Source: Polytrichum commune
Taxonomy: Eukaryota > Streptophyta > Polytrichopsida > Polytrichales > Polytrichaceae
DNA length: 64,000 nucleotides
Reading direction: 5' to 3'
NCBI GenBank assembly: GCA_950295325.1
Contig: OX485803.1
Span: 67,719,554-67,783,553 of the forward strand
Part shown: piece by piece, positions 4,519 to 64,000 of the stretch
How positions within the stretch are numbered: the first letter of the stretch is position 1
Layout of the letters: each line of letters starts with the position of its first letter
Notes under the pieces: model-generated
Databases searched by the model: none
Seen by the model: only the letters and a program-made list of their open reading frames with translations
Told to the model about the DNA's origin: nothing
Made by a program: the position numbers and the translations under genes

Positions 4519-7500
4519 CTGCATGCATCATCAGCCCAACCACAATGAATGTTGGATTCATGTTCGTTTGCTATGTGGACGTCATCCAGTAGGTGGAGGA
4601 ATGTAGTTGTAATTCTTACATAAAGAGCTTTCTTTGGGGGGAGATTTGGCATGTTTGAGGCTACCTTTGCTGTTGGCCTAATTGTGCGACCAGAAGTGCG
4701 GACGGCGCCCTTCCCTCTCCCTCCTCCAATATTATGCGCACAACACTAAATGTGTCATCTCTAGGAGCTCCCAATGTTGAGTCCTCACCACCATGATATA
4801 CATCACACGTGCAACTCTCCCATAATGTGCTCCACCAATTCAACAGTCTGGAAATTGGATCGGCCCTGACCTTCATGAACCTGCTTGCCCCAACTCCAGC
4901 TACGGACATCCGCGGGACTCTCACCTGCAAGTGTTTTCAGTGCTCACCCGTATTACTAGTGCCCTATGTACCACTGAATGGTCTTATGGACTAGGCGAGT
5001 TGGTTGGTCACGGCGTGCATTTGTGGACTACCCATGTTGCCCATCCCAACATACCTTTCTTGTGTAAGGAATAGTGAAGCCCGTTGCGCCCTCCCTGCCA
5101 ACTCCATTGTTTGCGCTCATTGTTTTCTCCTTTGCTATAGCTTTCCCTTGGGCATTTGAGGTAGGTTTTTTCCTCGTTCTCTGTGTTGCCTTCGCCTTCG
5201 CATGTGCAGGTGCAAAAATATCGTCTGAGGCGGGCGAGGTGGAGCCCTGCCTCCTTGGGTGCACTGTGGTTGCATCCTCGTCGTCCTCGGTGGATGAAGA
5301 TGGCACATTGATGGGCACCACGGCTTGCACGTGGATGATGCCACGCGGGGGGCTTCGTGGCCTGACCACCTCTTTGCTTCGGGTTTCAGAGGGGTGTCGG
5401 GTATTCGAGGGTGTGCGCTCCGATACTTGTGGGCCACTCTCGCAGCTCCCATTCCCCTTCTGCGACCCATGCTTTTTCGTGCTAGGACTGAGTGACCCAG
5501 CCTGCAATTCCTTACCTTTCTTCCCATCTGGTGTACTGGATGCAAGAGTCTTCTCTCCATCTGGCTTTGATTGTTGTTGGGTTGCATCATGGGGTTGTTT
5601 CAGGTTAGATACCAGAGCTTCTGCCAAAGCTTTCACATTTGAGTTCAACACCGACAATTCGGCCAAAAGAGCCGCAAAATCCACCCCCACCGAATCCTTG
5701 TCGAGCTTCTTCTCTTCCAGTGCTTCTAGGCGTGATACTACACTTGCAGTCATGGTCTGCACATCAGGATTCCAGGGTTAGGCACATGTGCCTCCTCATG
5801 TACATGACATCACATGCTTGCTCATACATCCACCTGTTTGGCAAAAATACACATAAACATTACACCCTCACAAAGTGTTTTCATGTGTGAGTGTTTATTG
5901 TCAATAAAGGTATTGCTGGCTCCATTCTCTATCCTGGTTTCCCTTTGGTGGAACCGGGGCCCATATCAATGTAATCGCAACACGAAACGTTGTATTCTAC
6001 ACTAATTGCGCATGAAGACCTGCCATGGCGATTGGTTTCTCAGTCTTTCGTATTCCCTAGGATTCTGCCATACTCATAGGTTCGCATGATCCGTGTTCTC
6101 ATAGCATGCACTGAAAGTGCAATTTCGGCTGCAATACGAATGCCTGTGGGCATCCAACCTGCTCGTCTTGGCATTAGTTCTTCAATTTAAATGGTTATTG
6201 GGTGGGCAAGGTCTGACATTAAGGTAGAGGAAAATCATGAGTCCGAATTGTTAGATTCAAGCATGTGCAACAAACTAAAGAACATTTGAATGTGTGGGCA
6301 GCAAGGCACATACCGATTTCTCCTCAACCATCGACGCATTTTGCGTCCCAATCTCGGCCAATGTGGGCTCTGGCATCAAATTTTTCCTCTGCAATTGCAA
6401 TAAATGGACAAAACGTTAGGGGATTCTTGGCAACCCACCAACCACACACATTCACAAATAGAAGCAGGTATGTGGGATTTGCGGCATTGTGGAGGCATTG
6501 TAATACCAGGGAAGCTGTTGTACCAGCCTTCCCATATCTTCCGTGGTGGGAGAGTGTTTTAACGCAACCCCTTGCAATTGTCATCTCCTGGATTCACCCA
6601 CCTCCCCTCAGTGCATAGTGTGCCATTGGGTGTGGAACACCTCCGTGACCCTCATGGCATTAGTTGTTGTTCGTGCAATGGAATAATTCATACAGTTGAG
6701 ACTTCACTTCAGAATAAAAAAATGTGCCTACCTTTGAGACCTTCTCGAATTCAGGTGACTGCCAGTATATCTTCAGCCTCTCCCACACTTGGGGCTCTTC
6801 CCTAGGGGGGCACTCGCGGTCGGGTTTAGTGATGTACAATTTGTGTAAACGCGACCTCTCAGCTTTCATGCATTTCGATACGGCCTTCTTGAACCCATAA
6901 TCCGATATGGGATGCCCTGTGAACTCAAATTCTGTTTCCACTTCTTCGCGCAGACTGGCATAATCTTGGGGATCTTGTGCCGTAACCTTGATTATAGAGA
7001 CATCGAGATATATTGTGCATAGAGCCTTGAGCACCTCCAGAAACCTGGACCCGTTTCTACCACTATCGTCTGGTTCCCCAAGACTATCACACTCAATCAC
7101 GTGAGGCTTTAGCCCCCTAGCCTTTCTGTCTGCTTCCATAGCCTCGTACACGTGCTGGGCATCCCGGCGTTGTTTTCTGCCCGACAAATTGCTCTTGGCG
7201 GGCTCGCCTGTGTTCATGATATCCTCTGGCTGCGGGGAATCGCGAATTCTGGCTTTCTCTGGGTTGAAGGACTCGCTGCTGGGAGCATTTAGCGCAGAGG
7301 GGGCTGGAAAGGGGGTTCTGCCATCCCCAGCACTGGAAGCCACCAACATATGTCCTGTAGCAGCCATGGGGTAGGACACCACCAAATTGGGTGCCACAAC
7401 CTGCAGGGGAGCGACGACGCCACCAACTGCATGGGGATTGTTGTGCCCAGCAGGTACTCTGTCATAGCCAGAACATTCCCCTTCGTCATAGAAACCCCTC

Positions 7501-11705: not shown

Positions 11706-14700
11706 CTGCGTGCATAAGCAACCCAAACATAGTCAATGTTGGATTCAACTTGGATTGCTATGTGGACATCATCCAATAGGCGGAGGAATGTAGTTGTAAT
11801 TCTTACATAAAGAGCTTTCTTTGGGGGGAGATTTGCCATGTTTGAGGCTACCTTTGCTGTTGGCTTGCATGCGCGGCCAGAAGACCTGACGGCGCCCCTT
11901 CCTCTCCCTCCTGCAATATTCTGCGTTCAAAAATAAATGTGTCATCTCGAGTAGTTGCCAATGAAGAGTGCACACCAGTATCATGAACACCACATGTGCA
12001 ACCCTCCCAGAATGTGTTGCACCAATTCAACAGTCTGGAAATTGGGTCGGCCCTGACCTTCATGAACATGCTTGCCCCCACTCCAGCTACGGACATCCGC
12101 GGGACTCTCACCTGCAAGTGTTTTCAGTGCTCAGCCGTATTACTAGTGTTCTATGTACCGCTCAATGGTTTTATGGACTATGGGGATGGGTTGGTCACGG
12201 TGACAATTTGTGGACGACCCATGCTGCCCATCTCGACATACCTTTTTTGATGGAGCTGTGGTCATGCCCAATGCGGCTTCCCTGGCAGCTTGTTTTTCTG
12301 CGTTCAATGCTGCCTCCTTTGCTATAGCTTTCCCTTGGGCATTTGAGGTTGCTCTTTTTCTTGGTTTTTGTGTTGGCTTCAGCTTCGCGTGTGTTCGTGC
12401 AAAACCACCATCTGAACCGGGTGACGCAGAGCCGTGCCTCATTTCCTCCAGCGTAGTTGCATCCTCGTCGTCCTCAGTGGATGAAGATGGCACATTGATG
12501 GGCACCATCGCTTGCACATGAATGATGCCACGCGGGGGGCTCCGTGGCCTAACTATCTCTTTGCTTCGGGTTTGAGAGTGGTGCCGGGAGTTCGACCGAG
12601 TGCGCTCTGATACTTGTGGTCCAGCCTCGCAGCTCCCATTTCCCTTCTGCGATCCAGGTTTTTTTGTGCATGGGCTGAGTGAGGCACCTGGAACTTCCTT
12701 GCCTGTCTTCCCATTTGGTGTACTGGATGCGAGAGTCTTCTCTCCATCTTGCTTTGATTTCTGTTGGGTTGCATCTTGAGTTTGTTTCCAGTTGATTATC
12801 AATGCGTATGTCAGAGCTTTAACATTTGAGTTCAACACAGACATTTCTTGCAACAGAGCAGCAAAATCCACCCCCAACGACCCCTTGTCGAGCTTATTCT
12901 CTTCAAGTGCTTCTAGGCGTGTCGCCACGCTTCCAGACAAGTTCTGCACATAGTGGTTCCAGATTCAGAGACAAATACCTCCCTATGCACCTGTCCACAC
13001 ATGAATCTACCATGCATTCACATACATAAACATGCTGTTCCAGCAGTGCACAACAACAATTACAATCCAACGCATGTTTTGTCCCCGTTTCTCTAAGGGG
13101 AATTGAATGCCCCAAACAATCTGTCCACATGGGAAGGTATGGATTGATTCCACATAACAACATGTTGCATAGGCTACTGACCCAACTTCAATTGTTCTGA
13201 CATATTCCGCCATATGCATATCTATGGACTTCCATATAGCCATATCTACATATCTGTAGATGACTTCCATATGGCTTTGATAGTACTTCCATATCTGTTC
13301 TGGACATTCTATGATTCAGCCCACCCAGGTGCATGTGCATGCTTGCATCAGTGAATAATAAATACTCTTAACTGGTGTCCCTTGTTTTGATGTAGGACAG
13401 TGCAATTGTTCCCTTCAGTACATATCACCCAACCAACCAGAACTCGACTCAAAATCACAGCGCTTCACAAAGGAAATAAACCCACTATGAGCATCATAAG
13501 AGTATACTCACTTATGCAAGAAACCCCCCTGCCGACACACGTACATAACCCGACACAAAATCACACCACTTCACGTGGCAACTAAACTGCCTGTATGCAT
13601 TGGAATAAGATACTAACCTTTGCAATAAGCCAACCCGCTGACACAGGTGCATAACAAGGCCAATACTAACAAAACTCACACCACATCAGGTGCCAACTAG
13701 ACTGCCTACATGCATCATAAAAAATATCAACCTACGCAATAACCCAACCCGCCGATACATGTGCATAACCAGGCCACAACTCCCAATACTCACACCAAAT
13801 CAGGCGCCAACTAAACTCACTGCATAAATCAGTTTAGGATACTAACCTATCCAATCAACCAGACCATTCACACGGGCTGCACAACCTGGCCACAACTCAC
13901 ACCAAAACAGGTGGCAACTAAACTAACTGTACGCAACAGAATTGGACACTAACCTTTGCAATAAGTCAGTCCGCTCACACGAGTGCATACCCAGGGCAGA
14001 GCTCAGAAAACTCACACGAAACCAGGTGGGAACTAAACGACTTGTCTGCATGAGAAAAGGACCCTAACCTATGCAATAAACTAGCCCGCCAACAAATATG
14101 CAAATTAAAGTGACTAGCAAATTCTCTGAATTGGTGTCATTTAGTCTGATTGAGGACATTGCAATTGTTTCCTTGAGTATATATCACCCAACCAACAAAC
14201 CAATACACAGTGTTGCCAATACACATGTTTTCTATATTGTTCTTGTCGATCCTGGCCTTGGTTTGTCACTTTATGTGGCTGTTCATTCTGCAATGTTTGA
14301 CATGCAGGTAGAAGACATACATTTTTGTAATTTGTTGCGTGAAAGCATTTGGAGCAAACTAGGATGACATAACAAAGAGTGGGTGTAAAGAACATGCCGA
14401 TTTGTCCTCGACCATTGATGCATTGTGTGTGCCGATCTCTGCCAATGTGGGGTCTCGCATCAAGTTTTTCCTCTGCAATTGCAATAATTGAACAACATGT
14501 TATAATATTTCTGCCAAATCACAAACCAGACACATGCAAAAAAAAAGTATGTTCATGAGATATGCAACATTGTTGAGGCATTGCAATACCAAGGAAGCTG
14601 TTGTACCAGCCTTCCCATATCTTCCGTGGTGGGAGAGTGTTTTAACGCACCCCCTTGCAATTGTCATCTCCTGGATTCACCCACCTCCCCTCAGTGCAAT

Positions 14701-17700
14701 GTGTCACATTGGGTGTGGAACACCATCCTAACCCTCATGACATTTGTTGTTGTTCCTGCAAATAATGGAATTGCATAATCAAAACTGCAGCCCAAAATAA
14801 AATCAAATGTGCCTACCTTTGAGACCTTCTCAAATTCAGGTGACTGCCAATATGTCTTCAAACTCTCCCATACACGGGGCTCTTCTCTAGGGGGGCACTC
14901 GCGGTCTGGGTTCGTCATGTACAATTTGTGTAAGCGTGACCTTTCAGCTTTCATGCATTTGGAGACAGCCTTCTTAAACCCGTAATCTGATATGGGGTGG
15001 CCGGTGAACTCAAATTCAGATTTGACTTCTTCACGCAAACTGGCATAGTCAGAGGGATCTTGTGCCATAACCTTGATGATGGATACATCAAGATATATTG
15101 TGCAGAGGGCCTTCAGCACCTCTAAAAACCTGGATCCATGTCTACCAGTTTCATATGGTTCCCCTAGACTATTGCACTCAATCACATGAGGCTTGAGCCC
15201 CCTGGCCTTTCTGTCCACCTCCTCGGCCTCGTACACATGTTGTGCATCTCGTCGTTGCTTTCTAGCGGATGAATTGCTCTTTGCAGCCTCGAATGTGTGC
15301 GAGCTCTCTTCTGGACGTGCGGAATCATGTATTGTAGCCTTCTCCTGGTTGAGAGACTCGCTCCTGGGAGCATTTTGGGGAGAAGTGGCTGCAAAGGGGG
15401 TTGGGACCTGCATACTAGCGGCAGCCACCAACATTTGTCCTGGAGCAGCCATGGGGTATGACCCCACCATATTGGGCGCTGCAACCTGCAAGGGAGCAAT
15501 GCCACCGCCACTGGGTTGGGAATTGTTATACCCAGGAATCGGTCTTTCGTAACCACAATGTTCGCCTTCGTCGTAGAAACCCCTCCGTTGCAATGGCTGC
15601 ACTTGATATCCATCGCGATCCATGTACACATTTTCTCTCATATTGTCAAAATCCATAGGGTGCCATCTTCGTGGAGGTCCGGGCCTCCCAGCAGGTGGCC
15701 TTGTGGGGTGCGATGGGTAGCCACCTGATGGAATGCGCGCAGAAGACTGCCCACCTCTCCACCCCCCACCACGATGAGTTGGATACCCAATGCTATCTTG
15801 CTCCCAATGTGCCGTATTCCAAGCCCCTTCTTGCCAATTTTGCGAGCGGGCACCTACAACATACCCACCTTCGTCATAATCTTGACTCTCATCTTGGCTC
15901 CAAGGCACATGTGGTTGACTCGCTGGATATGGTTGTCCCCGGGTTTGTTGACGCACATTGGGGATATATGATTGATCCCCAATATTTGCATATGCTGGGT
16001 CCCCAATCGTCGCATCTGGTATGGACTCCCTGTAAGCAATTTGCCCCGTCGCTTGCCATTGTGGACGCGAAGGTGGTCCCTGCGAGAGGTGCGGGTCTGG
16101 AGTCCATGTTTCCATACCATCTCCTTGTGCCTCATGGGGCTGAGGCACTCTCTCAGCCCGTGCATGCTCTCGGTGCACAATTTGAGCACCTGCCCCTGTC
16201 CCGGTCTCGTGTGCATGATATACTTCCCCCCGTGAGCGTTTCTCCGGCGGTCCCTGCGAAAATGTTAAGGGCCACCAATATGCAAATCACATCGGAAGAG
16301 GACACAACTCAACCCATAATCACACCAATCCATCGGGCAAATAAACTAACTGTCTGCATCAAACGAAGACACTAACTTGTGCAACATGTTAACAATATAC
16401 GTACACAATTATGCTCATTCCCGTACACAATTATGCTCCAAGCCCACCCAATTCAGAATTCAAGTAAACTAATAAGCTGCCTAAGAAGACTACACTAACA
16501 CATGCCACCACCCAACCTGCCCATACACATACACAGTTATGCTCTTGCCTCACCAATTCAGAATTCAAGAAAACTAACTAGCTGCCTAAGAAGACTACAG
16601 TAACATATGCCACCACCCAACCTGCCCGTACACATAAACAGTTATGCTCTTACCTCATCAATTCAGACTTCAAGTAAACGAACTGGCTGCCTAAAAAGAC
16701 TGCACTAACACACCCAAGGACCCCACCTGACCATACACATACACAATGTTGCTCTAAGCCCACCCAATTCAGACTTCAAGTAAACTAACTGGCTGCCTAA
16801 GAAGACTACACTAACATACCCAAGGACCCCACCTGACCATACACATCCACAATGTTGCTCTAACCCCACCCAATTCAGACTTCAAGTAAACTAACTGGCT
16901 GCCTAAGAAGACTACACTAACATACCCAAGGACCCCACGTGACCATACACATACACAATGTTGCTCTAAGCCCACCCAATTCAGACTTCAAGTAAACTAA
17001 CTGGCTGCCTAAGAAGACTACACTAACATACCCAAGGACCCCACCTGTCGCGCACCTCTCCATGAGGAGTGCCCGAAACACCATGGGCACAAGGGGGACC
17101 CCGGAGTGACACCCGGGACTTGTGGCGCCGTTGGTGAGAGGGCCCAAGTGATCGTAGTGTGGGTGAGGGCCCCGGGCGTTGGGAACGCCTCCCACCCACG
17201 AAGACTAGGAGGCACAAGGGTAAGGCCATGAGTTATGCGTAGCTCATGGCGTGGTGATTGTAGAAAGCTCAAAAACACCTCAATCGGAGGTGTGAGCTAG
17301 GAGTTATGGCCATTTGAGTGGGGCGCTGTCCCGGGACAGCGCCCTGGTACAGCAGTGCCTGGGAGTGATTCCCGGGACTGCAAAGGTTCAAACAGGCATA
17401 ACTTCCTCAATACTTGCCCGAATGGGGCAAGTGAGGAGTCCATCGGCATCTACGTGAAGCGTAGATGAAGATGGAGTGGTTGGTTGTTATGATCAGACAT
17501 CATACAAGGAAGTTATGATGGTCTGAAGCTGCTGGGGGGTTCTAGGCCCAGCAGCTAAAGGAAAATGTCCACTTGGCCCCAACTCTTGGTAGAGAGACAA
17601 GAGGTTGGTTGACGGTGGGGTAGGGGCCCCGCGTGAAGTCCTAGAGGCTTATATGGGTGAGGTGGTGTGGCCTCACCCACCCGAGGCCGAACGGCAAGGC

Positions 17701-20700
17701 CTCCATGGGCTTTGGCCTATTGTGAGGCCATAGTTGCCTAGTATGGTTCGGGTTGTTGTAGTGTTGCTCCGGCAACGCGATGATCAACATAGGATTGGAC
17801 TTCCATGGATGGAAGTCCACATTGGGGAAATGGGTTACCGATTAAGGGGTGAGTCCCGAAAGCAAAGTAGGAGGGTTGGTTCCCTCCTATGAACTATTGG
17901 TCCGGGGTAAGAGGAGCTATCCATTAGCATGGCGGAATGCGAAGGGTTAGCGCTCGTAACCTTTGCTAGAAACGAAAATTGGCAAGATTATTGAGGGACC
18001 TAGCAAGGGTTGCGACACCACCTGACCATACACATACACAATGTTGCTCTAAGCCCACCCAATTCAGACTTCAAGTAAACTAACTGGCTGCCTAAGAAGA
18101 CTACACTAACATACCCAAGGACCCCACCTGACCATACACATCCACAATGTTGCTCTAAGCCCACCCAATTCAGACTTGAAGTGAACTACCTGTGTGCCCA
18201 AAAAGACCCCACCTGACCATACACAAACACAATGTTGCTCTTACCTCACCAATTCAGAATTCAAGTGAACTAACTGGCTGCCTAAGAAGACTACACTAAC
18301 ACACCCAAGGACCCCACCTGACCATACACATACACAATGTTGCTCTAAGCCCACCCAATTCAGAATTCAAGTAGATTAACTGGCTGCCTAAGAAGACTAC
18401 ACTAGCATATGCCACCACCCAACCTGCCCATACACATACACAGTTATGCTCTGTTCTCACCAATTCAGACTTCAAGTAAACTAATTGCCCGTCTAAAAAT
18501 ACTACACTAACATACCCAAGGACCCCACCTGACCATACACATCTACAATGTTGCTCTAAGCCCACCCAATTCAGACTTCAAGTAAACTAACTGCCCGCCT
18601 AAAAAGACCCCAACTGACCATACACATACAAAATGTTGCTCCAAGCCCACCCAATTCAGAATTAAAGTAAACTAACTGGCTGCCTACGAAGACTACACAA
18701 CCATATGCCACCACCCAACCTGCCCATACACATACACAGTTTTGCTCTGTCCTCACCAATTCAGACTTCAAGTAACCTAACTGGCTGCCTAAGAAGACTA
18801 CACTAACATACCCAAGGACCCCACCTGACTATACACATCCACAATGTTGCTCTAAGCCCACCCAATTCATAATTCAAGTAGACTAACTGGTTGCCTAAGA
18901 AGACTACACTAGCATATGCCACCACCCAACCTGCCCATACACATAGGTTATGATGCTCTAAACCTCATCAATTCAGAATTCAAGTAAACTAACTGGCTGC
19001 CTAAGAGGACTACACAAGCATATGCCACCACCCAACCTGCCCATACACATACACAGTTATGCTTTGTTCTCACCAATTCAAACTTCAAGTAAACTAACTA
19101 CCCGCCTAAAAAGACTACACTAACATACCCAAGGACCCCAACTGACCATACACATACACAATGTTGCTCTAAGCCCACCCAATTAAGAATTCAAGTTAAC
19201 TAACTGGCTGCCTAAGACAACTACACAAGCATATGCCACCACCCAACCTGGCCATACACATACACAGTTATGCTCTGTTCTCACCAATTCAAACTTCAAG
19301 TAAACTAACTGCCCGCCTAAAAAGACTACACTAACATACCCAAGGACCCCAACTGACCATACACATACACAATGTTGCTCTAAGCCCACCCAATTAAGAA
19401 TTCAAGTTAACTAACTGGCTGCCTAAGACGACTACACAAGCATATGCCACCACCCAACCTGCCCATACACATACACAATTATGCTCTTACCCCACCCAAT
19501 TCAGACTTCAAGTAAACTAACTGCCTGCCCAGAAAGACTACACTAACATACCCAAGGACCCCACCTGACCATACACATACACAGTTATGCTCTTACCTCA
19601 CCCAATTAAGACTTGAAGTCTACTAACTGCCCGCCTAAAAAGACCCCACCTGACCATACACAGACACAATGTTGCTCTAAGCCCACCCAATTGTGACGTC
19701 AAGTGAACTAACTGGCTGCCTAAGAAGACTGCACTAACATACCCAATGACCCCACCTGACCATACACATACACAATTATGCTTTTACCTCACCTATTCAT
19801 AGTTCAAGTGAACTAACTGGCTGCCTGAGCAGATTGCACTAACATACCCAAGGACCCCACCTGACCATACACATACACAATTATGCTCTTACATCACCCA
19901 ATTCAGACTTGAAGTCTACTAACTGCCCGCCTAAAAAGACCCCACCTGACCATACACAAACACAATGTTGCTCTAAGCCCACCCAATTCTGACTTCAAGT
20001 GAACTAACTAGCTGCCTAAGAAGACTGCACTAACATATGTCACCACCCAACCTGCCCATACACATACACAATTATGCTCTTACCTCACCCAATTCAGACT
20101 TGAAGTCTACTCACTGCCCGCCTAAAAAGACCCCACCTGACCATACACAAACACAATGTTGCTCTTACCTCACCAATTCAGAATTAAAGTGAAATGACTG
20201 GCTGCCTAAAAAGACTGCACTAACATATGTCACCACCCAACCTGCCCATACACATACACAGTTATGCTCTTACCTCACCAATTCAGACTTCAAATGAACT
20301 AACTGCCTGCCTAAAAAGACTGCACTAACACATGTCACCACCCAACCTGCCCATACACATACACAGTTATGCTCTTACCTCACCAATTTAGACTTCAAAT
20401 GAACTAACTGCCTGCCTGAGAAGATTGCACTAACATACCCAAGGACCCCACCTGACCATACACATACACAATTATGCTCTTACCACACCCAATTCAGACT
20501 TGAAGTCTACTAACTGCCCGCCTAAAAAGACCCCACCTGACCATACACAAACACAATGTTGCTCTTACCTCACCAATTCAGAATTAAAGTAAACTGACTG
20601 GCTGCCTAAAAAGACTGCACTAACATACCCAAGGACCCCACCTGACCATACACATATACAATTATGCTCTTACCTCACCCAATTCAGACTTGAAGTCTAC

Positions 20701-22405
20701 TAAGTGCCCGCCTAAAAAAACCCCACCTGGCCATACACAAACACAATGTTGCTCTTACCTCACCAATTCAGAATTCAAGTGAACTAACTGGCTGCCTAAA
20801 AAGACTGCACTAACATACCCAAGGACCCCAACTGACCATACACATACACAATGTTGCTCTAAGCCCACCCAATTCAGAGTTCAAGTGAACTAACTGCGTG
20901 CCTAAAAAGACCCCACCTGACCATACACATCCACAATGTTGCTCTAAGCCCACCCAATTCAGACTTCAAGTGAACTAATTGCCTGCCTAAGAAGACTACA
21001 CTAGCATATGCCACCACCCAACCTGCCCATACACATACACAGTTATGCTCTTACCTCACCAATATAGAATTCAAGTGAACTAACTGCCTGCCTAAAAAGA
21101 CCCCACCTGACCATACACAAACACAATGTTGCTCTAAGCCCACCCAATTCAGACTTCAAGTGAACTAATTGCCTGCCTAAGAAGACTACAATAGCATATG
21201 CCACCACCCAACCTGCCCATACACATACACAGTTATGTTCTTACCTCACCAATACAGAATTCAAGTGAACTAACTGCCTGCCTAAAAAGACCCCACCTGA
21301 CCATACACAAACACAATGTTGCTCTAAGCCCACCCAATTCTGACTTCAAGTGAACTAACTGGCTGCCTAAGAAGACTGCACAAGCATATGTCACCACCCA
21401 ACCTGCCCATACACATACACAGTTATGCTCTTACCTCACCAATTCAGACTTCAAATGAACTAACTGCCTGCCCAAAAATACCCCACCTGACCATACACAA
21501 ACACAATGTTGCTCTTACCTCACCAATTCTGACTTCAAGTGAACTAACTGGCTGCCCAAAAAGATTGCAGTAACATACCCAAGGACCCCACCTGACCATA
21601 CACATACACAATTATGCTCTTACCTCACCCAATTCAGACTTGAAGTCTACTAACTGCCTGCCTAAAAAAACCCCACGTGACCATACACAAACACAAAAAC
21701 CCTGCCCAAAATGCACTCCAAATCATAGCGCAATTATGCAACCCTAAAACCATACTATGGAAGAGCGCAACAAATTGCCACAATGCATACTCACTGGCCC
21801 ATCCACCAACACCCTAATCCTGAACGTAACCAACAATGTCCAGAGAAGCATAACCAGCAAACCCACCCACTTTATCCACATTGCTGCTTCCAGACAACGG
21901 CAAACATGTTCACATGATAAAACCCAATGCTCACACCAACCAGATGCTCAAGAACATTGAGGCAACCATGTGGAGCACCACCTCAAACAAAAGTATGCAT
22001 GCAAGGTTGACCACCTGAACACCATCATCACCAACATGCGTGAATGCCAATATCAACCACAATGACATGTGGCCCATTTCCAGGTATTTCAAAGAGATGC
22101 ACATGCAGGATGGTACCTTTGTTGGCGATGTTACATTTGGGCGTTTGCGAGTATCCGTGGTTGTGTCCCCGGCAGGAATTGTGGCGGAGTTTCCAACCCC
22201 ACCATGCAATTGGTCATCCCCTGCACCGTATTGCGAGGATGCACATGCGCTTTTTTGTGTGTTGTCCACCACATTGTCCGTGGCATCTGCCATGTTTGTA
22301 TTTCCTGGTCGAGCAAGTCTCAAACTTCGTCGCAGGGGTGAATGGGAAGTGCGCAGGGATTTAGTATTCGGCTTCTTCTTTGTCAGGCCAACCGGCACAC
22401 CAAAT
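11415..22405 (-). CDS. Transposase_24-like CACTA accessory protein, copy 2 (seven exons)
   Basis: Exons in transcription order are 22405-22117, 16253-14817, 14670-14590, 14472-14398, 12943-12242, 12111-11852 and 11705-11415. Their lengths equal those of copy 1 exactly (289, 1437, 81, 75, 702, 260, 291), and none has an internal stop in the used frame. One donor differs: the 75-nt exon ends TCG|GCATGT, a GC-AG type site, where copy 1 has GTATGT. The intron after the first exon is 5863 nt and holds array D and a solo LTR. Domain order and the unresolved last junction are as in copy 1. Transcription across so long a repeat would be needed for this copy to function. Confidence 0.6.
11852..12111 (-). 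CDS. 260-nt exon of accessory gene, copy 2
   Basis: Same acceptor (cttgcag), donor (AAAG|GTAGCC), start (VRVPRMSVAGVGAS) and length as copy 1. The ADPISRLLNW block and the SCTC/GCTC cysteines are kept. It has the same phase problem at the downstream junction. Confidence 0.55.
12242..12943 (-). CDS. 702-nt exon: coiled coil and Ser/Pro-rich linker, copy 2
   Basis: Acceptor gcag|AAC and donor AAAG|GTATGT, 234 codons. It starts with a coiled-coil-like segment (TRLEALEENKLDKGS). The strongly conserved RSPPRGIIHVQA and INVPSSSTEDDEDAT blocks sit in the middle. The tail has more Ala than in copy 1. Confidence 0.65.
12944..13385. other. Intron of copy 2 without recognised features
   Basis: Intron sequence between the 702-nt exon and array C. 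It contains small repeats of ATATGGACTTCCATATAGCC type near 13222-13292, forming short palindromic ATATGG/CCATAT motifs. No gene is seen. Confidence 0.4.
13386..14100. repeat. Tandem array C in a copy 2 intron
   Basis: About six units of roughly 110 bp with ordered blocks CAATAACCCAACCCGCCGA, CATGTGCATAACC, CTCACACCAAATCAGG, CAACTAAACTG and GGATACTAACCTATGC. The blocks match arrays A and E in the same order. The corresponding intron of copy 1 (5757-6313) has no such array, so this one was gained in copy 2 or lost from copy 1. Confidence 0.8.
14398..14670 (-). CDS. Two short exons (81 and 75 nt) of accessory gene, copy 2
   Basis: Exon 14670-14590 (EMTIARGCVKTLSHHGRYGK, nearly identical to copy 1) and exon 14472-14398 (RKNLMRDPTLAEIGTHNASM). 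Acceptors are canonical. The donor of the second is GCATGT rather than GTATGT; GC-AG introns are a known minor class and this one keeps the rest of the donor consensus. Confidence 0.6.
14817..16253 (-). CDS. Main exon (479 codons) with Transposase_24-like core, copy 2
   Basis: Acceptor tcgcag|GGACC and donor AAAG|GTAGGC give 1437 nt in phase 0, exactly as in copy 1. The Pro/Gly/Tyr-rich first part has diverged more (for example around 15350-15500). The core (RRDAQHVYEAEEVDRKARGL, GSRFLEVLKALCTIYLDVS, KAERSRLHKLYMTNPDREC, WESLKTYWQSPEFEKVSK) is almost unchanged. This contrast points to selection on the core. Overlapping plus-strand ORFs are shadows. Confidence 0.75.
16290..21700. repeat. Satellite-like array D in intron of copy 2
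   Basis: About 4.4 kb of tandem repeats, plus an inserted 972-bp solo LTR. The full unit is 105-106 bp: CCATACACATACACAATGTT, then GCTCTAAGCCCACCCAATTC, AGACTTCAAGTAAACTAACT, GGCTGCCTAAGAAGACTACA and CTAACATACCCAAGGACCCC. A second form replaces the last part with CATATGCCACCACCCAACCT. A short form of about 80 bp lacks the CTACACTAACATACC segment. In the right half long and short units alternate, giving a higher-order period near 188 bp. Periodic minus-strand ORFs here are repeat artefacts. Confidence 0.9.
17046..18017. mobile_element. Solo LTR of an LTR retrotransposon, in array D
   Basis: A 972-bp segment unlike the repeats around it. It starts TGTCGCGCACC and ends GGGTTGCGACA, giving matching TGTCGC/GCGACA ends. 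It is flanked by CCACC on both sides (17041-17045 and 18018-18022), a 5-bp target duplication. Removing it with one CCACC restores a normal repeat unit. No internal coding part, primer site or second LTR is present, so it is a solo LTR fossil left by LTR-LTR recombination. Superfamily cannot be told from the LTR alone. The perfect duplication suggests a fairly recent insertion, later than array growth at this point. Confidence 0.85.
21701..22116. other. Intron of copy 2 beside array D
   Basis: Single-copy intron between the donor at 22116 and the end of array D. No further repeat or gene is recognised. Confidence 0.4.
22117..22405 (-). CDS. 289-nt basic exon of accessory gene, copy 2
   Basis: Acceptor ttgcag|ATTT and donor ACAAAG|GTACCA, 289 nt. 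The product begins FGVPVGLTKKKP, continues with LRRSLRLARPG and then MADATDNVVDNTQKSACASS, matching the copy 1 exon. The donor is phase 0 and joins the phase-0 main exon 5.9 kb away. Confidence 0.6.
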
Positions 22406-25259: not shown

Positions 25260-26234
25260 TCCTAACGCAGGAGACCTAAACCAACAACGCGGCCCAGCAC
25301 ATGGTTGAGGTGGGTAACACTCTCACTGTGCACTGGTGACTGTTACTGGCATGTGCAACCCTATGGGTAGACGTCCGCTACCCATGGGTTCCAGCACGAC
25401 AGGCCTCCTGCAATGCGATAAAAAAGTGGGGAGACGGCATGTCAAATAGCAATCATTGTTCAAATATAACTACACCCTAATGAATGTGAGAACATGAAAA
25501 TGAGCTCAGATTTGTGACAATCCAATGTCACGACCATACTTGGACTACCTGGCCTATTTGCATAAGATGTGGACTTCATCAGTGATTGCATTAGTGTGTC
25601 TGAAGTGGTTAGTGTTGACAACCATGAGCATATTTAGATGTTTTGGGTGTAGGCTCTCCCAACCAATTTGCCCATAAATTAACTTCCCACAATCCCCATA
25701 TGGGCTATAATTCAAGAACATTGGAGCCACCAACAGGCTTCATGCAATTGCTATACATGCAGAACGAGGTAGAATTCTGTTTTGGAAATCTTTTGTGAAG
25801 TATATGATGTTCAACGACAGGACTCATCATGTACATGGAGTTGCCACAATTGGTGTTAATGTGTCCACGTTCAAAGCTAAACAGTGAGGCCCAACAACCA
25901 AATACGAGCATATTTAAACCTATATAAAATGCATGATTTCATTTCAAAATGCCAACGTACGTAGATGTTGTGAACAAGGATATTCGCGCCACATGCTTCT
26001 GCCACTCCACACATGCCAAAGGATGAGGCTAGTGTAAACTGCCTTTGGTTATTCACATCTAGCAACATGCAGCCAGAAGGCATTATTTGCAGATACCGCG
26101 TGTATAGCAAAAACTCAATAGATGTCCAGAGGTGAATTGCAATTGGGCTATATTGTCTAATACAACATGCATCAGATTGCAGAGACATCCAGTAGACACG
26201 TACCACAACCCTCTGCACGGAGCTGGAGAACAAT
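25260..26234. other. Upstream region of the TNP2 transposase
   Basis: About 1 kb between the divergent minus-strand frames and the transposase ATG, where its promoter and leader should lie. Minus-strand ORFs reaching in from 26488 are antisense shadows of the transposase. No clear TATA box or repeat could be picked out. Confidence 0.35.
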
Positions 26235-29200
26235 ATGGGGGACCCAACGCCTCGACCACACCTGAGGGATCCCATACGGATAGCAGTGCGGGATGAAAAG
26301 TTGTGGCGACGAGAGTCGGCAATGTATGCAGCCCACCGCATAAAATTGGTGCCTTGCCCTTGCAAAGTTTGCAAAGGGAGCAAGAAACACATGGCAACAA
26401 ACAAAGTTGAAAGCCACCTCATGACAAATGGGAGACACCACTCATTTAGAAAATGGAGAGGCCCTGGTCCAAGGGACGACTCTGACAATGAATGGGATAG
26501 CCATATTCGCGGAGGCGGACATCTGCTTGCACGGCTCCCAATAGATGAAAATGTTGGATTGGAAAGGTTGTTTCATAATGTGAATGCTGTCCATGCGAAT
26601 GGTGTTCCCCCACCCGAAGAACCTAATGCTCCACCTCCGGTAGAAGAAGATAACCTCCCAGATATGATGGCAAACTGTGAAGACCCAGAGTTCGCTAATC
26701 ATGTAATGGATGTTGTGCAGCAAGCACAGACTATGGTAGAGGATGTGCAGGCACAACCAGACTCCATAGCAGAGCACGACAATGTGGTTGCAGATAATGA
26801 TGGAAATGAACCCCTCTCTGCACCTGGCACACCCGAAATGACGGACGAAGGGACGGGGCCAGGAGACATACCAATGGATGCAGTGGAGGATTTAAATCTA
26901 ACAGAGGTGTTGTTGTCGTGCCACCCTTTGTTTCCGAATGCATCTGTAACGAAGCTTGCGGCCACCATGCTCATCATGACAATATGCACAATTCATGGTG
27001 TAAACAACAAATTTGTGGATGAATTACTATATCTTTTGAGCAAGTACATTCTGCCCCATCCGAATTCATTGCCTTTGAACATGTACCATGCTAGAGTGCT
27101 TGTGGAGAAGGTCAGTCATAGCTATGAGAGCATACATGCATGCAAAAATGGATGTGTGTTGTTCCAAGGGAATGCATACAATGATTTAACAGAATGTCCA
27201 GTGTGTAATGCAAATCGATTCAAAGCATGTGGAAGGTCACAAGTGCCGGTGAGCGTTCTGAGACACTTCCCTCTGATACCCCGACTAGTCAGATGGTACA
27301 AGTCACCGAGAATAGCAAAAATGTTGAGGTGGGCTCACCTGAACAAATCCAGCGATGGCAAAATGCACGGTGTTCACGACTCCCCAGCGTGGCGTGCAAT
27401 CGACACAAAGTTTCCGTCCTTTGCTAGAGGTTTCCGAAACATCCGCATGGCATTGTCAGCAGATGGTTTCAACCCATTTTCATCCCTTCTATGCCAATGG
27501 TCCACTTGGCCTGTATTTGTATTCATATACAATTTGCCTCCTTGGATGACCACAAAACGTTTTTTTGTCATCCATGTCTTACTCATTCCAGGAAAACATT
27601 CACCCAATGGAGGCAACATTGATGTGTACATGAAGCCTGTTATAGATCAATTGAAACAACTTTGGTGGCCTGGTGTGTGGGCAGACGACCACAGCATATC
27701 CCCAGAACTCACGCGCAGGTTTAGACTCTGAGGTTGCTTGATGTGGACAATCAATGATTGGCCAGGCTATGGCCTCCTATCTGGTATGGCGCATGCCGGC
27801 TACGCTGGCTGCCCCCCCTGCGGGCCAGAGGTGACCTCAAGATACTCTAGGGAGTTGCATAAATGTTTGTACACTGGCTCACGACGCTGGTTGCGATCAA
27901 GGCAACACCCTTACAGAAGACCAAATTACAGTGCAACGTTTGGAAACGAAACAGAATCGCGGGCGCAGCCCAAAAGGCCAACAACGACAGAGATACTGGA
28001 AAGGGCAGAAGAGTATAAGAAATGGCTAGAGTCTGGCAATGTGGCGGGAGGAGAGCTTGATCCCTCAAGGTGGCACGGTGTCAAGAGAAGATCGTGTTTC
28101 TTTGACTTACCATATTTCAAGGTAGGTCCACAACACAGTACGTATGCATCAGATTCAAGGGTGAACTAACAGGGGCTGCACATTAAGAGAGGTTGTGAAA
28201 AAACAACATAGAGTTGATATTAACTTGCAACATGATGTATGTGCAGCACTTTCTTGTGCGGCATTGCACAGACGTTATGCACGTGGAGAAGAATGTTTGC
28301 GAAAATGTGGTGAAGACAATCCTCGGAGAGAAAGACACAATTGCATCCAGACGAGACATGGAAGCAACAGGAGTCCGCGAAGAACTATGGCTGGTTAAGA
28401 CGACCAATGCCCGAGGAAAGACGAAGGTTATAAAGCCTGTAGCACCGTACGTACTGAATGATGTGGACCTCCCCATATTCATGTCCAGACTAGCAGCCCT
28501 TCAGGTGCCTTCTGGATATTGCGGTGCCATTGCAAAGCATATAACACTCAGGAAACTGAGCGGGATGAAGGCGCATGACTGGCACATTGTCATGCAACAG
28601 TTACTGCCATTGTGCACAAGGGGTCTCTTGGACCGCGGGCCTCGCACAGCAATCATGAGACTGTCGCGCGTTTTTAGAAGAATTTGCGCTAAAGTCATAG
28701 ACCCCACCGACATGGTCAACCTCAAAGAGGACGTTGCAGTTACAATGTCAATGCTCGAGATTCACATGCCTCCGAGTTTTTTCGACGTTATGTCACACCT
28801 GGTGATACACCTCGTGGAGGAGCTGGAGCTGTGTGGGCCCGTACACACACGCTGGATGTACAGTGTTGAGTGAATGAACAAGGTTTTAAAAGGGTACGTC
28901 AACAATATGGCCAGGCCAGAGGCATGCATGGCAAAATCGCATGTGCTGGAAGAGGCAATTGGACTGGTGGCCGAGTTTATGACTGACTATGAGCCACTGC
29001 ATCGCAATGTGTGGACAGAGGAGGCTAGCGCAAGGATTACCGGGGAGGTTCTGGAAGGAGCTGGAACCACATCTGTTATCACACCCTATATGAGAGACAT
29101 TGCACATGAGTACCTGCTTCTAAATCGCACATCATTCCAGCCACTGTGTAGGTATGCGAGAAACATAATCCTAAACTCCATTATCGGTTCATCTAAAAGA

Positions 29201-30140
29201 ATGCACCAGAAGTGGTAATGTCAGACGGGAACGAAGGCAACATTGATGGCAGACTTTTTGTCCAGTGCCAGTATGATCGAAACATCTTTTTGTTATGATG
29301 TAAGCTTCAATTGCCATATTGTGGTCCTGGAACAGAGAATATGTTGTAGCCCGGGCAGAGTTCGAGGGTGCAGTTCCCCTGGACACACCCCTTGGTGCAT
29401 TTCCTAGTCTGGCCGTGTGGATAAGAGAAGCTGTGCGAAAGCTAGCAAGTCGGCAAGAAGGCCTGCCAGATGCAGACATGAGAAAACTATCAGTGCCCCC
29501 TAAGCTGGTGTCAAAATTGTACTCAAGGATGCAGGCGTACGGTAACCATTACCGCTGCGATGATGGATCATCGGCTGGAATGGTAAGCTATGACTGTGGT
29601 GTGGCGTCAATCTTGAAAACGCAAGGTTCTACAATAGGAGGTGTGATGGGCCAAATACACTACGTAGGTGTTTTGAAACACATTCGAGTTATGGACTATG
29701 GGAAAGTTATCACACCCATTACCTTAATGGAATGCGATTGGGTTCGCCATGGTGTGGACGAAATGGGAGAGCCCACATACAAAAGAGATGAATATGGTTT
29801 CCTCTTGGCCAACTTTTCTTGCGTGCTGGAGCATCCAGATGACCCATTTGTATTGCCATCCTAGGTCCAACAGGTTTTCTACGCTGATGCAGAGAGCAGT
29901 GGACCCTGGCGTGTTGTACTAAACAGCGAGGCAAGGTCCAGGAGGTCTCTGGCGTCCGACTACGAGGAGTTTATAAATACTCGAGTGTGTGTGCCAACAC
30001 TAGAGGCCGAAACCTTGCTGGCCCCCACATCCCACATTCCGAACATGGTGGGTGGTATAACATTGTGTGAAAGAGACGCAGAGCTCGCATTAGCACCTTT
30101 GCTGAGGGGAGAATTTGGCAACATATCCGATGAGGACTGA
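26235..30140 (+). pseudogene. CACTA (En/Spm) TNP2-type transposase
   Basis: ATG at 26235. Residues 1-100 resemble the transposase-associated domain (CPCKVCKG, then SHLMTNGRHHSFRKW). An acidic linker follows, then the TNP2 domain (PF02992): ECPVCNANRFK, GVHDSPAWRAID, ALSADGFNPFSS and IYNLPPWM, then WTINDWPGYGLLSG. A GT-AG intron at 28122-28246 joins LPYFK to HFLVRHCTDVMHVEKNVC in frame. The DUF4218-like part (HLVEELELCGPVHTRWMY) and DUF4216-like part (VLEHPDDPFVLPS, QVFYADAESSGPWRVVLNSE) follow. In-frame stops at 27729 (TGA), 28871 (TGA) and 29862 (TAG) fall where family members have Arg, Arg and Gln. The junction near 29215-29335 looks like a second intron that I could not resolve. The protein would be DNA-cutting, but this copy is dead unless the stops are bypassed. 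Confidence 0.85.
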
Positions 30141-59690: not shown

Positions 59691-61390
59691 CTCTTTACCT
59701 TATACCGTAGCACCATAGCTGGTTCGTGCACCTCAAAACGAATATTTATTTATTTATTGAAAAATAAGGTTCGTCAACGAAAAATATAATTTATGCAATT
59801 TCGTCAATCCTATGATTTTGAAAAGATTAATTCATTTTTTCGTTAAGGTCCAGTAGTTGTGCAAGTAGGTTGTTGTTTTTTTCATTCATTCGTGGCGGCT
59901 TCTTGGCCTTAGACCTAAGTATCCACCTTAACTTTACTTAGTGCGGCTCTTGTTCGTCTTTGCACAATGTATGTGTTAGGTCTTTGTATGTATTTGCACT
60001 TTGATATGTGTGAGAAGAGTGTTAGAAATGACACCAAAACAATGACGGGTTGATTTTTCTTTTATCCCTATTAGCAAGGAAGAGAGGGAGATGGGTATAG
60101 AGAGAGAGTTTGCTCCTCTTTGTGAAATAACAAAGCATCACAACATCAGAAGCATTAGAATTGATTCAGACACAAGTGTTCTAGAGGAGAGATTTGCCAC
60201 CCGGGGCTCCCTCAACGACACCTTGAGCAAAAACAGTAAGAATAACAAGGCTCCAGATAAATTGAATAAGTCTGTTCGTACATGTGTGCTAACAATCTCT
60301 AGCCTTACAAAAAATTCTTTGATGAAAGACATCAAAAGGCTAAACAAGATTGCACACATAAGAGGCTGGGACCCTAACCTCACCGTTGGCAACAAACATT
60401 GTGCAAAACCTTTTTTAATTTAAACGCACATGCAAGCACGTTGCTAGTCCTCTTTGTGAAATAATAAATCTCAGTTCATTAATCAGAAGCATCATCAAAA
60501 GTGATCTCGAAACAAGCGTTCTAAAGGGAGTGTTGACATTCCAGGCTGATCCCTACTAAGAATAATGCACTCCATATCAACGCACATATCCAAGCCGAGA
60601 CGTTAAGCATATCTATCAAACAATTTAGAGGTTGACAAGTTGGAGATCGAACAAGTGCTCAAACATATCTTGTGCTCGTATGGAAAATCCTTCGATGAAA
60701 AGTAAAGATCCTTGATTACATTGCAGGAAACAAACTTACAAAAGAACACACACAAAAAACAAGGATGCCAGCATCCAAAGCTCCACATATCTAATCACAA
60801 CCATTTTCCAGATGAAAGAGTCCCTATGCATTCCTACAAGTGGGCACATATGCTGCTAATGAAAACAAAAAGTGGCAACAACATGTGTTAATGACCATGT
60901 AGATGAACAATAAATATCTCTACTTAAATATCAACTAGCAATTACATCAAAAGATCATTCAAGCATATGAGAAGGTGGCGAGTGAAAACCTCGGGAATTA
61001 GCTCATGCCCTTATCCCCTAACGAATGAGAACAACATGATTTGCAAATATAAAAGCATAAGAACGATGGTTAGGTATAGGTTGGTAGAGTTGTTCCCCAT
61101 GTAGAAGCCTTTGGGTCTCTTCGTCCTCATGAGCCCATCCTCTAGATAGATAGATAGATAGAAACTCTGATCCCTGGGGTAGGGGCCGGCGTGAATAAAG
61201 TGTCCGTTCGTAATGCCAATAACCCGATGCCCACAGGACAAAGGGAAATTGGGGCTATACTACTCTCCCCTTTCGAGGATGGACACTATAGTAGCCAGAA
61301 ACCGAATAAAGAAAGCTAGCTGCAGCTGGCAGCCGTTTACTGTTGTTTTGTTGGTGTTATAAGGTGTGATTTTGTGGCGTTGGTGTTTGC
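59691..61390. repeat. Intergenic DNA with a duplicated segment
   Basis: Segments at 60107-60190 and 60445-60530 are related (CCTCTTTGTGAAATAA, ATCAGAAGCAT, ACAAG(T/C)GTTCTA), an old direct duplication about 340 bp apart. The first lies in a 110-codon frame of unknown identity (60091-60423). A short (GATA)n run is at 61143-61161. No gene is supportable. Confidence 0.45.
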
Positions 61391-61427
61391 CAAGTCATGT
61401 TTCCTCGGTTGGTTGAGGGTGGATGTT

Positions 61428-61760
61428 ATCAGAGACTATGCATCAAGTTCGTTGTTTCAAGAGCAAATTTCCTAACCACTTTGCGTTCACACTTGAACGT
61501 TACTAGTTCTTGGGTGTATTTGGTTCTATCTTTGGTCCATTCTATATTAATGTGGATGTTAACTATAGTTATGCGTTACTAGTTATTGGTCTATTTGGTC
61601 TTTTCTATTTTTGCTCTATTCTATTTTAATATGGATGTTAACTATAGTTATACGTTACTAGGTCTTGGTCTATTTGGTCCTTTCAATTTTTGGTCCATTC
61701 CATTTTAATGTGGATGTTATCCATTCGAAGTTAATGTGGATGTTAACTATAGTTACACAT
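61428..61760 (+). repeat. Dispersed repeat with ~80-bp triplication
   Basis: 61428-61580 matches 42411-42567 in opposite orientation. The end part is repeated three times (starting near 61498, 61574 and 61652), each with GTTACTAG, TATTTGGT and ATGTGGATGTTAACTATAGT. The third copy contains an extra partial repeat. Confidence 0.75.
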
Positions 61761-62058
61761 ATATAGTTACATATATTATATGTATCTAGTCAAGTATGTT
61801 TGTTTCTTAAAGATATTTGAAACTACCACTTGAAAGGAGTCTTGACTCATAGTTGTATATAATATATAAGCCCTAGGTTTGGGTGAAACATGCCTCTTCA
61901 ACCTCATTATTGTGATATTCGCCTTCGAATCTTTTGTTCTTGTGTCTACTCCATTACTGTTTTTTGCTTTTGTAATCTGTTGTAAGTGTTTTTTCCATAT
62001 TTATTTGTTTTATTCATTTATAGAAAAATCAAATTGATACCTTAATAGTTGACTTACT

Positions 62059-63137
62059 ATGGAGTATAAGTGTGATGTATGTAATAGAATAATGAAATCT
62101 CAAGCACAGCTTGAGTTTCATTGTAAATCTAAAAAACATACTAAAATGATTGTTGAATCCACATTATATGATACTAAAAATGTTACAATCTCAGATGAGG
62201 TTGTAATACAAAAATTTCGATCACAAGGAGTTTCAATTCCAATTGGAATTCGCCATGTGATCTATGTATCTAAAAATGTGGATTTTTTAGATGCCTTCAC
62301 TGAAATCACTACTTCTGTAATTTTGGTTGAAAATGAAAAAGTAGTGGCAATTATTGATTTCAATTTTTTTTCAAATGAATTGATAAACATATTGACCAAT
62401 GAATGTAGTATATTATATACTGCAGGAGAAATAGTAGAGATATGGTGGAGATATGGTTGTTTTTTATGGAGAAATTGCTATGCTGAAGGATTTGGCATGT
62501 ATAAGCAAACTAATAGAAAAGGTAGGGAAAAAAATATGAAAATTTCAGCTGCAGATTTGAACACACTAAGTGCGCGAACAACGATTAGAGTATTCGACGT
62601 GTTGAAAATTCAAATGTCATCTTGGATTAAAGATTTGGAAAATTTAGTTTCGAAAAAGTTGGGGACATTGTGGGGTCGTATTGGATATACTTCATTCACA
62701 ACGATGAATGTGATAGAGAACTATTGGTCTCCTGACCATATAGATGACAAAGATGGAAGTTCCGGATTTATATTTTGGGTCCATGAAGGTAATTTCCAAT
62801 CACAGAATTTATTTTAAAACTGATATAAAAGTATGTCATCGTATGTTATACTAGAAGTTAAAAATGTTGGATTCACTAGTTTCTGTTGTTGTAATTGAAT
62901 TCAACATATTTTGCAGAGATTCCAGACCATTTTCGAATTGAACGGGCACAATTCCGTATGAAAGACTATGGATTATTTTTTCGTCCAACGCGTGGGACTT
63001 TAATATGTTTTTATGCTTAAAAAATAAACCATGGTACAACTGAAAATACGGGGTATAAGCAATATGGAGTTGTCGTCTTAGTAAAGCCTATTGTTTTAAA
63101 AGCAGATTTAAAAGCATTAAAAAAATTGGAATTTTAG
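62059..63137 (+). pseudogene. C2H2 zinc finger + TET/JBP-like 2OG-Fe(II) dioxygenase
   Basis: Exon 62059-62788 joins exon 62917-63137 by a GT-AG intron in phase. Residues 5-27 form a U1/matrin-type C2H2 finger (C-x2-C-x12-H-x5-H: Cys5, Cys8, His21, His27). Around residue 225, FTTMNVIENYWSPDHIDDKD carries an H-x-D motif as in 2OG-Fe(II) oxygenases. After the intron come FRMKDYGLFFRPTRGTLICF and, past an in-frame TAA at 63018, INHGT and YKQYGVVVLVKP, the expected distal His segment. The pattern recalls the TET/JBP-like 2OGFeDO family, whose members oxidise 5-methylpyrimidines in nucleic acid. The family call is from memory. Reading to the TAA gives 277 residues without the distal His, so the product would lack a metal ligand. 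Alternative: a different H-x-D…H oxygenase. Confidence 0.5.
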
Positions 63138-63412
63138 GTACTAGTAGAAAAGTACTAGCACATGTACATGTTAATAGCCATGTTGGGACTGTATTTTCTT
63201 GTGAATTGTTGTTAAATGTCCCTGCATTCATGAGGGTATAGCATCTTGAGTTTTGTGATGATAGGATTAGTTTTCTTAATTCCCATACTGCTTTGTTATG
63301 TCTTTTAGTTCTGAGGACGTGTATGTGGTTATATTTTTACACATATATTATTTATACACCCTACTTGAAGATTAATACATTTTTAATTACTAAAAACCGC
63401 TATTCTTGTTTT
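63138..63412. other. Spacer downstream of the dioxygenase-like gene
   Basis: AT-rich sequence. No gene is seen. Confidence 0.35.
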
Positions 63413-63762
63413 GAGTATGTTTTATCGCTGAGTATGTTTTTTGCAAAAACCGCTATTTATGTAAAAACATTTTACCTCTAAGTATGTTTTTTTGCCAAAA
63501 CCGCTATTTATGTAAAACATTTTGCCTCTAAGTATGTTTTTTGCAAAACCGCTATTTATGTAAAAACGTTTTGCCTCTAAGTATGTTTTTTGCAAAAACC
63601 GCTATTTATGTAAAAACGTTTTGCCTCTAAGTATGTTTTTTGCAAAAACTGCTATTTATGTAAATCATTTTACCTTTGAATATGTTTTTTGCAAAAACCG
63701 CTATTTATGTAAAACATTTTACCTTTGAATATGTTTTTTGCAAAAACTGCTATTTATGTCTT
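63413..63762. repeat. ~50-bp tandem repeat, seven units
   Basis: Units start near 63431, 63481, 63531, 63580, 63630, 63680 and 63729. Each has AGTATGTTTTTTGCAAAAAC, CGCTATTTATGTAAAAAC and TTTTGCCTCTA. The last two units carry TTTGAATATG variants. It is a simple minisatellite. Confidence 0.9.
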
Positions 63763-64000
63763 TATTTGTTTTCTTTGTCTTGGCTCATTTATTCTGTGGG
63801 GATTGCTTGATTGTTTTCTATATGTCTCTTGTGTAGGAGGATTGAGCTAGCAAATTGTATGGCAATAGTGTTTATTGCTTTGAATGTATTTTTAACATTG
63901 TTTTCTGGGATTTTAAATGTTTGTTCAAGTTGTTTCATTGATGGGATGTGCGTGGTTCCTCTAGCTCCTGCTGTTATGACTATAAGTGGGTCTACTTTCC
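63763..64000. other. Right edge of window, nothing recognised
   Basis: Pyrimidine-rich AT sequence without an open frame or repeat that I can assign. Confidence 0.35.

Follow-up and report, generated by a model that had tools for sequence, protein, structure and literature searches.

Oxygenase genes of the TET/JBP type travel in the DNA transposons of fungi, where several lineages, including EnSpm/CACTA, bear them and transfers between lineages have taken place (Kojima 2025, PMC12730594); the same survey, by its own statement, encountered no retrotransposon bearing a TET/JBP gene. The other systems to which the present locus may be compared are the following: CMD1 of Chlamydomonas (PMC7854593; PDB code: 7cy4), which modifies 5-methylcytosine; the retrotransposons of dinoflagellates and charophytes that have acquired cytosine methyltransferases (de Mendoza 2018, PMC5890265); the Ty3/Gypsy elements of orchids, which are LTR elements with an added m6A RNA demethylase domain (PMC9289625); and the Dualen/RandI non-LTR retrotransposons (PMC4640811).

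The window analysed here, that is, the whole 64,000-nucleotide stretch of DNA (C1:67719554-67783553 of the 407.8-Mb genome of Polytrichum commune), contains what is quite probably the relic of a transposon-carried gene for a TET/JBP-like dioxygenase with an N-terminal C2H2 finger, which would have travelled first in a CACTA-type element before its capture by a LINE, and which has decayed neutrally. Like the fungal genes, it would encode an oxygenase of TET/JBP type carried by several transposon lineages; unlike them, it resides in a land plant, has a LINE among its carriers, lies antisense with an intron and includes a C2H2 finger, and all of the close copies found are dead. With CMD1 it shares an aligned H-x-D...H core and an Asp at the position of D350, but the sequence similarity is weak, and here the gene is carried by transposons in multiple copies and includes a finger. 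The acquisition of a DNA-methylation gene by a retrotransposon recalls the elements of de Mendoza, except that there a methyltransferase lies in the coding region, whereas here an oxygenase lies antisense in the 3′ region; the orchid elements, for their part, are plant retroelements that have gained a demethylase domain. In the open-access literature, we found no description of land plant transposons, or of retrotransposons from any host, that bear a TET-type gene, and an antisense, intron-bearing TET-like gene inside a retrotransposon may be a new arrangement. Iyer and colleagues are said to have mentioned, in a 2014 abstract, the transfer of TET/JBP genes to Viridiplantae.

The gene in the window

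The gene starts with an ATG at 62059 and is open throughout exon 1; it then crosses a splice donor, GAAG/GTAATT (boundary 62788/62789), and an acceptor, TTTTGCAG/AGA (boundary 62916/62917), and continues in frame up to a TAG at 63135-63137. The spliced gene is in phase, with 316 codons before the final TAG, and the sole stop ahead of it, at codon 278 of 317, precedes the distal histidine by four codons. Its features are as follows.

62059..62788, plus strand: exon 1, from the reading frame
62065..62139, plus strand: C2H2 finger, residues 3-27; PF12171 and PF12874, both over cut-off
62737..62745, plus strand: H-x-D (H227, D229), from the CMD1 alignment
62789..62916, plus strand: intron, 128 bp; donor GT kept in 13/14 and acceptor AG in 13/14 copies, and a sister family aligns across the junction
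62917..63137, plus strand: exon 2, from the reading frame; found at other genomic copies
63018..63020, plus strand: TAA, codon 278; TAA in 4/13 copies, Ser (TCA) in 9/13
63030..63032, plus strand: distal histidine codon H282, from the CMD1 alignment

The first-pass annotation, made from the letters of the window, had described a gene for a C2H2 finger followed by an oxygenase core of TET/JBP-like kind, spliced in phase and cut by one TAA at 63018 ahead of the distal histidine, with coding continuing to 63137, and all of this is borne out. Its description of the frame as perfectly open holds in that there is no other stop, but not in full: the window copy lacks 14 bp near codon 128, relative to the 11 other copies covering the site, and a further 1 bp near codon 134 that is present in 10 of 11 others (L034 shares the gap). 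The net loss of 15 bp keeps the frame, such that about nine residues replace fourteen. The gene is also more than a chance frame, as it is present at 13 other places in the genome, with protein identities of 63-87% over the matched pieces.

Elsewhere in the window, arrays of 85/106-bp tandem repeats with a strong strand skew extend over 16424-21696, and an adjoining block (17046-18017) recurs in L058 at 96%. Long minus-strand ORFs without a Pfam match form two pairs that resemble each other, at 5031-8207 and 12146-16286, and look as if one element were present twice. An Rfam search over the window gave no match.

Mobile carriers of the gene

Searches with exons 1 and 2 delimited 14 close copies (the window, L028-L031 and L033-L041; L032 continues L031), and their neighbours fall into a LINE context, a CACTA-type context and a third one comprising two copies, L030 and L033, the latter with an ORF for a NIF-type phosphatase. 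The linkage with transposons that the first-pass annotation mentioned for fungi is also found here, in the LINE and CACTA-type copies; the antisense placement within a LINE and the CACTA-type relatives go beyond what that annotation had noticed.

Four copies (the window, L029, L034 and L036) are found within the 3′ region of a LINE, in antisense orientation to it. They share this region and its (TAGA)n end, have unrelated flanks to the left in all four cases, and form a single clade (support 100/98); identities among them are 94-97% in the LINE parts and 93-95% in the gene. The corresponding features of the window are the following.

61139..61985, minus strand: host LINE 3′ region, with the (TAGA)n end at 61139; common to L029, L034, L036 and gene-less LINE copies
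61986..63391, no strand: insert missing from three gene-less LINE copies (empty site in L059, L060 and L061); its right edge is imprecise, falling within the 49-bp repeats or immediately ahead of them
63160..63327, no strand: 168-bp direct repeat of the LINE's own ORF2 C-terminal region; counterpart at 64218-64377, just past the window
63420..63759, no strand: 49-bp tandem repeats, also in gene-less LINEs and CACTA-type copies
63792..64000, minus strand: C-terminal part of LINE ORF2, continuing past the window; ORF and sequence comparison

To the right of the gene, and on the opposite strand, the ORFs of the LINE (L036/L058 and L027) match Exo_endo_phos (7.8e-7), RVT_1 (1.8e-21) and RNase_H (2.9e-13), such that an apurinic-type endonuclease, a reverse transcriptase and an RNase H are all present by Pfam in the ORFs of L058 and L027, as they are in the single LINE of Dualen/RandI. 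In the PDB comparison, the nearest relative of the reverse transcriptase is R2, with L1 more distant. A putative restriction-like endonuclease was discerned at L036 6221-6769 as a motif by eye only, with no Pfam or PDB match, and it is in this respect that the comparison with Dualen/RandI is looser. Taken with the apurinic-type endonuclease and the RNase H, this possible C-terminal endonuclease of restriction-like type suggests that the host element is a Dualen-like LINE, which we followed from its 3′ end inward, the 5′ end lying beyond the stretches read. L029, a short copy of the LINE, gave no evidence of a target-site duplication of at least 8 bp. Two further observations concern the LINE ORFs: L036 8050-9579 (minus strand) gives an unexpected match to PCIF1_WW (7.9e-10), a family tied to mRNA cap methylation, and L058 1724-3391 (minus strand) contains DIETNPGP ahead of the endonuclease domain, which we take to resemble a 2A ribosome-skipping motif.

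LINEs of the same subfamily also exist without the gene. The LINE 3′ region had 3159 candidate matches, and among the 40 that were scored, at least 10 places away from any gene match resemble most of it at 96-98%. The distance from the end of ORF2 to the 3′ region is 275-976 bases at five gene-less places, as against ~1.7-1.8 kb in the window and L036, and in each of the three that were read (L059, L060 and L061), the sequence '...TTGTAA' passes straight into the 49-bp tandem repeats, constituting an empty site. In the gene-bearing LINEs, the insert comprises the gene, the 168-bp copy of ORF2 and ~60 bp also found in the CACTA-type copies, and we infer that such a patchwork fits template jumping by the reverse transcriptase. 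The intron is kept in all four LINE copies: as the gene is antisense, transcripts of the LINE contain the intron as its reverse complement, a form on which splicing does not act.

Eight further copies (L028, L031, L035 and L037-L041) share flanks with one another. In L028, the strand opposite to the gene encodes Transposase_21 (PF02992, tnp2; 9.9e-73), DUF4218 (3.3e-38) and a SET domain (1.8e-7), the SET domain gene lying at 6411-6848, beside the TET-like gene; the designation CACTA-type is assigned from the tnp2 transposase rather than from element ends. The flank on the transposase/SET side is common to L028, L035, L037 and L040, with only its gene-proximal part in L031, which is a mosaic with the context of L033; L038, L039 and L041 share only the flank on the other side. 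Elsewhere in the genome, the SET-side flank has at least 42 matches (40 of 93 candidates scored), and at one place with this flank, L062 (C2), most of the gene is deleted. The window itself holds another CACTA-type element at 26196-29861 (Transposase_21, 1.7e-37; DUF4218, 1.5e-19).

The two contexts can be related to each other through L027, where similarity between the CACTA-type copies and the LINE starts at 4523-4543, a range that takes in the LINE junction (4539); copying of a CACTA-type segment into the LINE would be expected to leave such a pattern. The gene would then have travelled first in a CACTA-type element, beside the transposase and SET genes, and would have entered a Dualen-like LINE through a single copying event, with template jumping of the reverse transcriptase as a possible mechanism; the LINE would subsequently have spread the gene and its intron together, since its RNA carries the antisense strand. 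The alternative that survives best reverses this order: capture by the LINE would have come first, and the CACTA-type element would later have received a copied segment that included the 49-bp repeats. Indeed, these repeats occur in gene-less copies of the same LINE subfamily, where they may be native, and the transfer may therefore have run the opposite way; however, the start of CACTA-type similarity around the capture junction would then be a coincidence, the CACTA-type copies are the more numerous (eight against four), and ~345 bp that follow the gene in them are absent from the LINE copies. We regard this reversed order as possible, if rather unlikely, and retain that from CACTA-type element to LINE.

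The predicted enzyme and its relatives

The gene is predicted to encode a C2H2 finger followed by a TET/JBP-like Fe(II) oxygenase core. The finger is matched by PF12171 (E 2.3e-6) and PF12874 (E 4.1e-6). The C-terminal part of the window copy matches Pfam Tet_JBP with an E-value of 7.1e-6, and its score of 25.8 bits lies below the gathering score of 34.9; in a genome search with the same family, only the present gene family was matched, the best score, 31 bits, again falling below the cut-off. For this reason, we name the protein TET/JBP-like and do not file it as a member. When six of the 14 copies were aligned, Tet_JBP matched all six (best E 7.3e-8) and PF20515 (Tet-like 2OG-Fe(II) oxygenase) four of them, and the profile of this alignment had CMD1 as its top match in the PDB (E 2.8e-4), the next being triosephosphate isomerase (0.08). 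Both the H-x-D and the distal histidine line up with those of CMD1, and an Asp five residues past the first histidine takes the position of D350, mutation of which to Asn leaves CMD1 making very little product (PMC7854593). The assignment suggested by the first-pass annotation is, thus, upheld as regards the nearest Pfam and PDB relatives, which are TET-type proteins and CMD1, and falls short at the gathering cut-off; the structure prediction, for which exon 1 alone was folded (mean pLDDT 35.8), is uninformative as to the double-stranded beta-helix. Beyond the genome, 417 stretches of viral contigs matched a pattern and none encodes a relative, a search of phage records for relatives found nothing, and the PHROGs search yielded weak matches only.

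From these relationships, we infer an activity on DNA: the intact enzyme would have oxidised 5-methylcytosine on the DNA of the element, weakening its silencing, and relief of methylation silencing may, by analogy with the fungal transposons, have been its function. A 2-oxoglutarate oxygenase acting instead on RNA or protein, and carried for another reason, would be in keeping with a score below the Tet_JBP cut-off and with the annotation of the finger family PF12171 as double-stranded-RNA binding; given that TET-type proteins and CMD1 come out as the closest relatives in Pfam and the PDB, and that the equivalent of D350 is present, we consider a non-DNA substrate unlikely, and less likely than a reversed direction of transfer.

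The predicted DNA oxygenase also appears to have less damaged relations. A search with the exon 1 protein of L029 at E-values up to 1 gave additional weak matches in uninterrupted frames, among them L064 (C4:8189890-8190310), which encodes HDDDTDYG...GHCTT, an H-x-D...H pattern. Compared with the family profile, L064 scores a probability of 96.2% (E 2.7e-9, for a single comparison) over 95 columns that span both the exon junction and codon 278. The sister family occupies nine places in the genome, including C4:18824953, C3:27969550 and C6:31528358; at four of these, whose frames measure 407, 407, 386 and 162 aa, the 140 residues are read without interruption, and at the other five the matched piece is split or contains stops. 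On its own, the sister family gave no oxygenase match in Pfam or the PDB, and the link consequently rests on the alignment, which speaks for the splice model and suggests a branch of the gene family in which decay is less advanced. The open frames of this distant family are what could be said for a host gene family with pseudogenes that merely adjoin mobile elements; such a reading is very improbable, in view of the capture junction, the empty site, the LINE 3′ end common to four copies and the kilobases of flank common to the CACTA-type copies.

Searches of the genome exon by exon, which can miss genes, revealed no other TET-type gene over cut-off besides a relic at C2:1128016-1128408, where PF20515 is matched at an E-value of 4.2e-17 with several stops inside. 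C5 cytosine methylases (PF00145) have at least 123 matches, all 123 of those scored out of 353 candidates; many of them sit in long frames, and a frame of 1386 aa recurs; at L063 (C5:48363700-48364130), the family was confirmed with an E-value of 1.7e-13. This set looks like a high-copy mobile methyltransferase.

Decay of the copies and its meaning

None of the 14 close copies found is intact, and their breaks differ: there are stops at several codons, frameshifts, 5′ losses and large inserts (L031, L037 and L040), and the gene copy of L029 ends just inside exon 2. Exon 2 was found at 13 places including the window, and is free of internal stops at six. At codon 278, TAA is shared by the window, L034, L035 and L040, and 5 of 12 copies have a stop at codon 189. 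A single shared origin of the codon 278 stop is not supported, as the best tree has four changes, at least two of which are forced by supported branches; the change is from C to A beside an A-run, making its repeated origin easy. The ratio of N to S is 3.33 (160:48) for private and 3.04 (70:23) for shared substitutions, against a neutral expectation of 2.4-3.6, and 29% of columns are variable in the intron versus 35% in the exons, which argues for decay without visible constraint. Moreover, no purifying selection was detected among the copies (median pairwise dN/dS 0.78 over 90 pairs). Use of the enzyme by the elements is accordingly unproven, and the lack of constraint weighs against their still using it while spreading.

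The TAA of the window is, on these comparisons, most likely part of the neutral decay, and the loss of function envisaged by the first-pass annotation fits, whereas the bypassed stop, or allele of a working gene, that it also entertained is scarcely credible: the frame is open on either side and the same codon is TAA in other copies, but those three have further breaks, the C-to-A change lies beside an A-run, and every copy is broken differently with substitutions that look neutral.

A more ambitious reading is that the TET/JBP-like enzyme helped one lineage of LINEs in a land plant to counteract silencing, with the antisense orientation allowing the intron to survive and making an own promoter possible, and that, together with the high-copy C5-methylase genes in long frames and the SET gene of the CACTA-type element, the mobile elements of this genome would hold both writers and an eraser of silencing marks; we think this doubtful, and less likely than a non-DNA substrate. 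Returning to the decayed, transposon-carried gene that we favour, TET-bearing transposons would, if this is true, extend from fungi to a land plant, with a retrotransposon added as a carrier, and antisense carriage is an uncomplicated means by which a retroelement can disseminate a gene together with its intron. Plant DNA demethylation is described as excision of 5-methylcytosine of the ROS1 type (PMC11065753); a mobile oxidative route of demethylation, with a sister family in open frames, would be directly testable.
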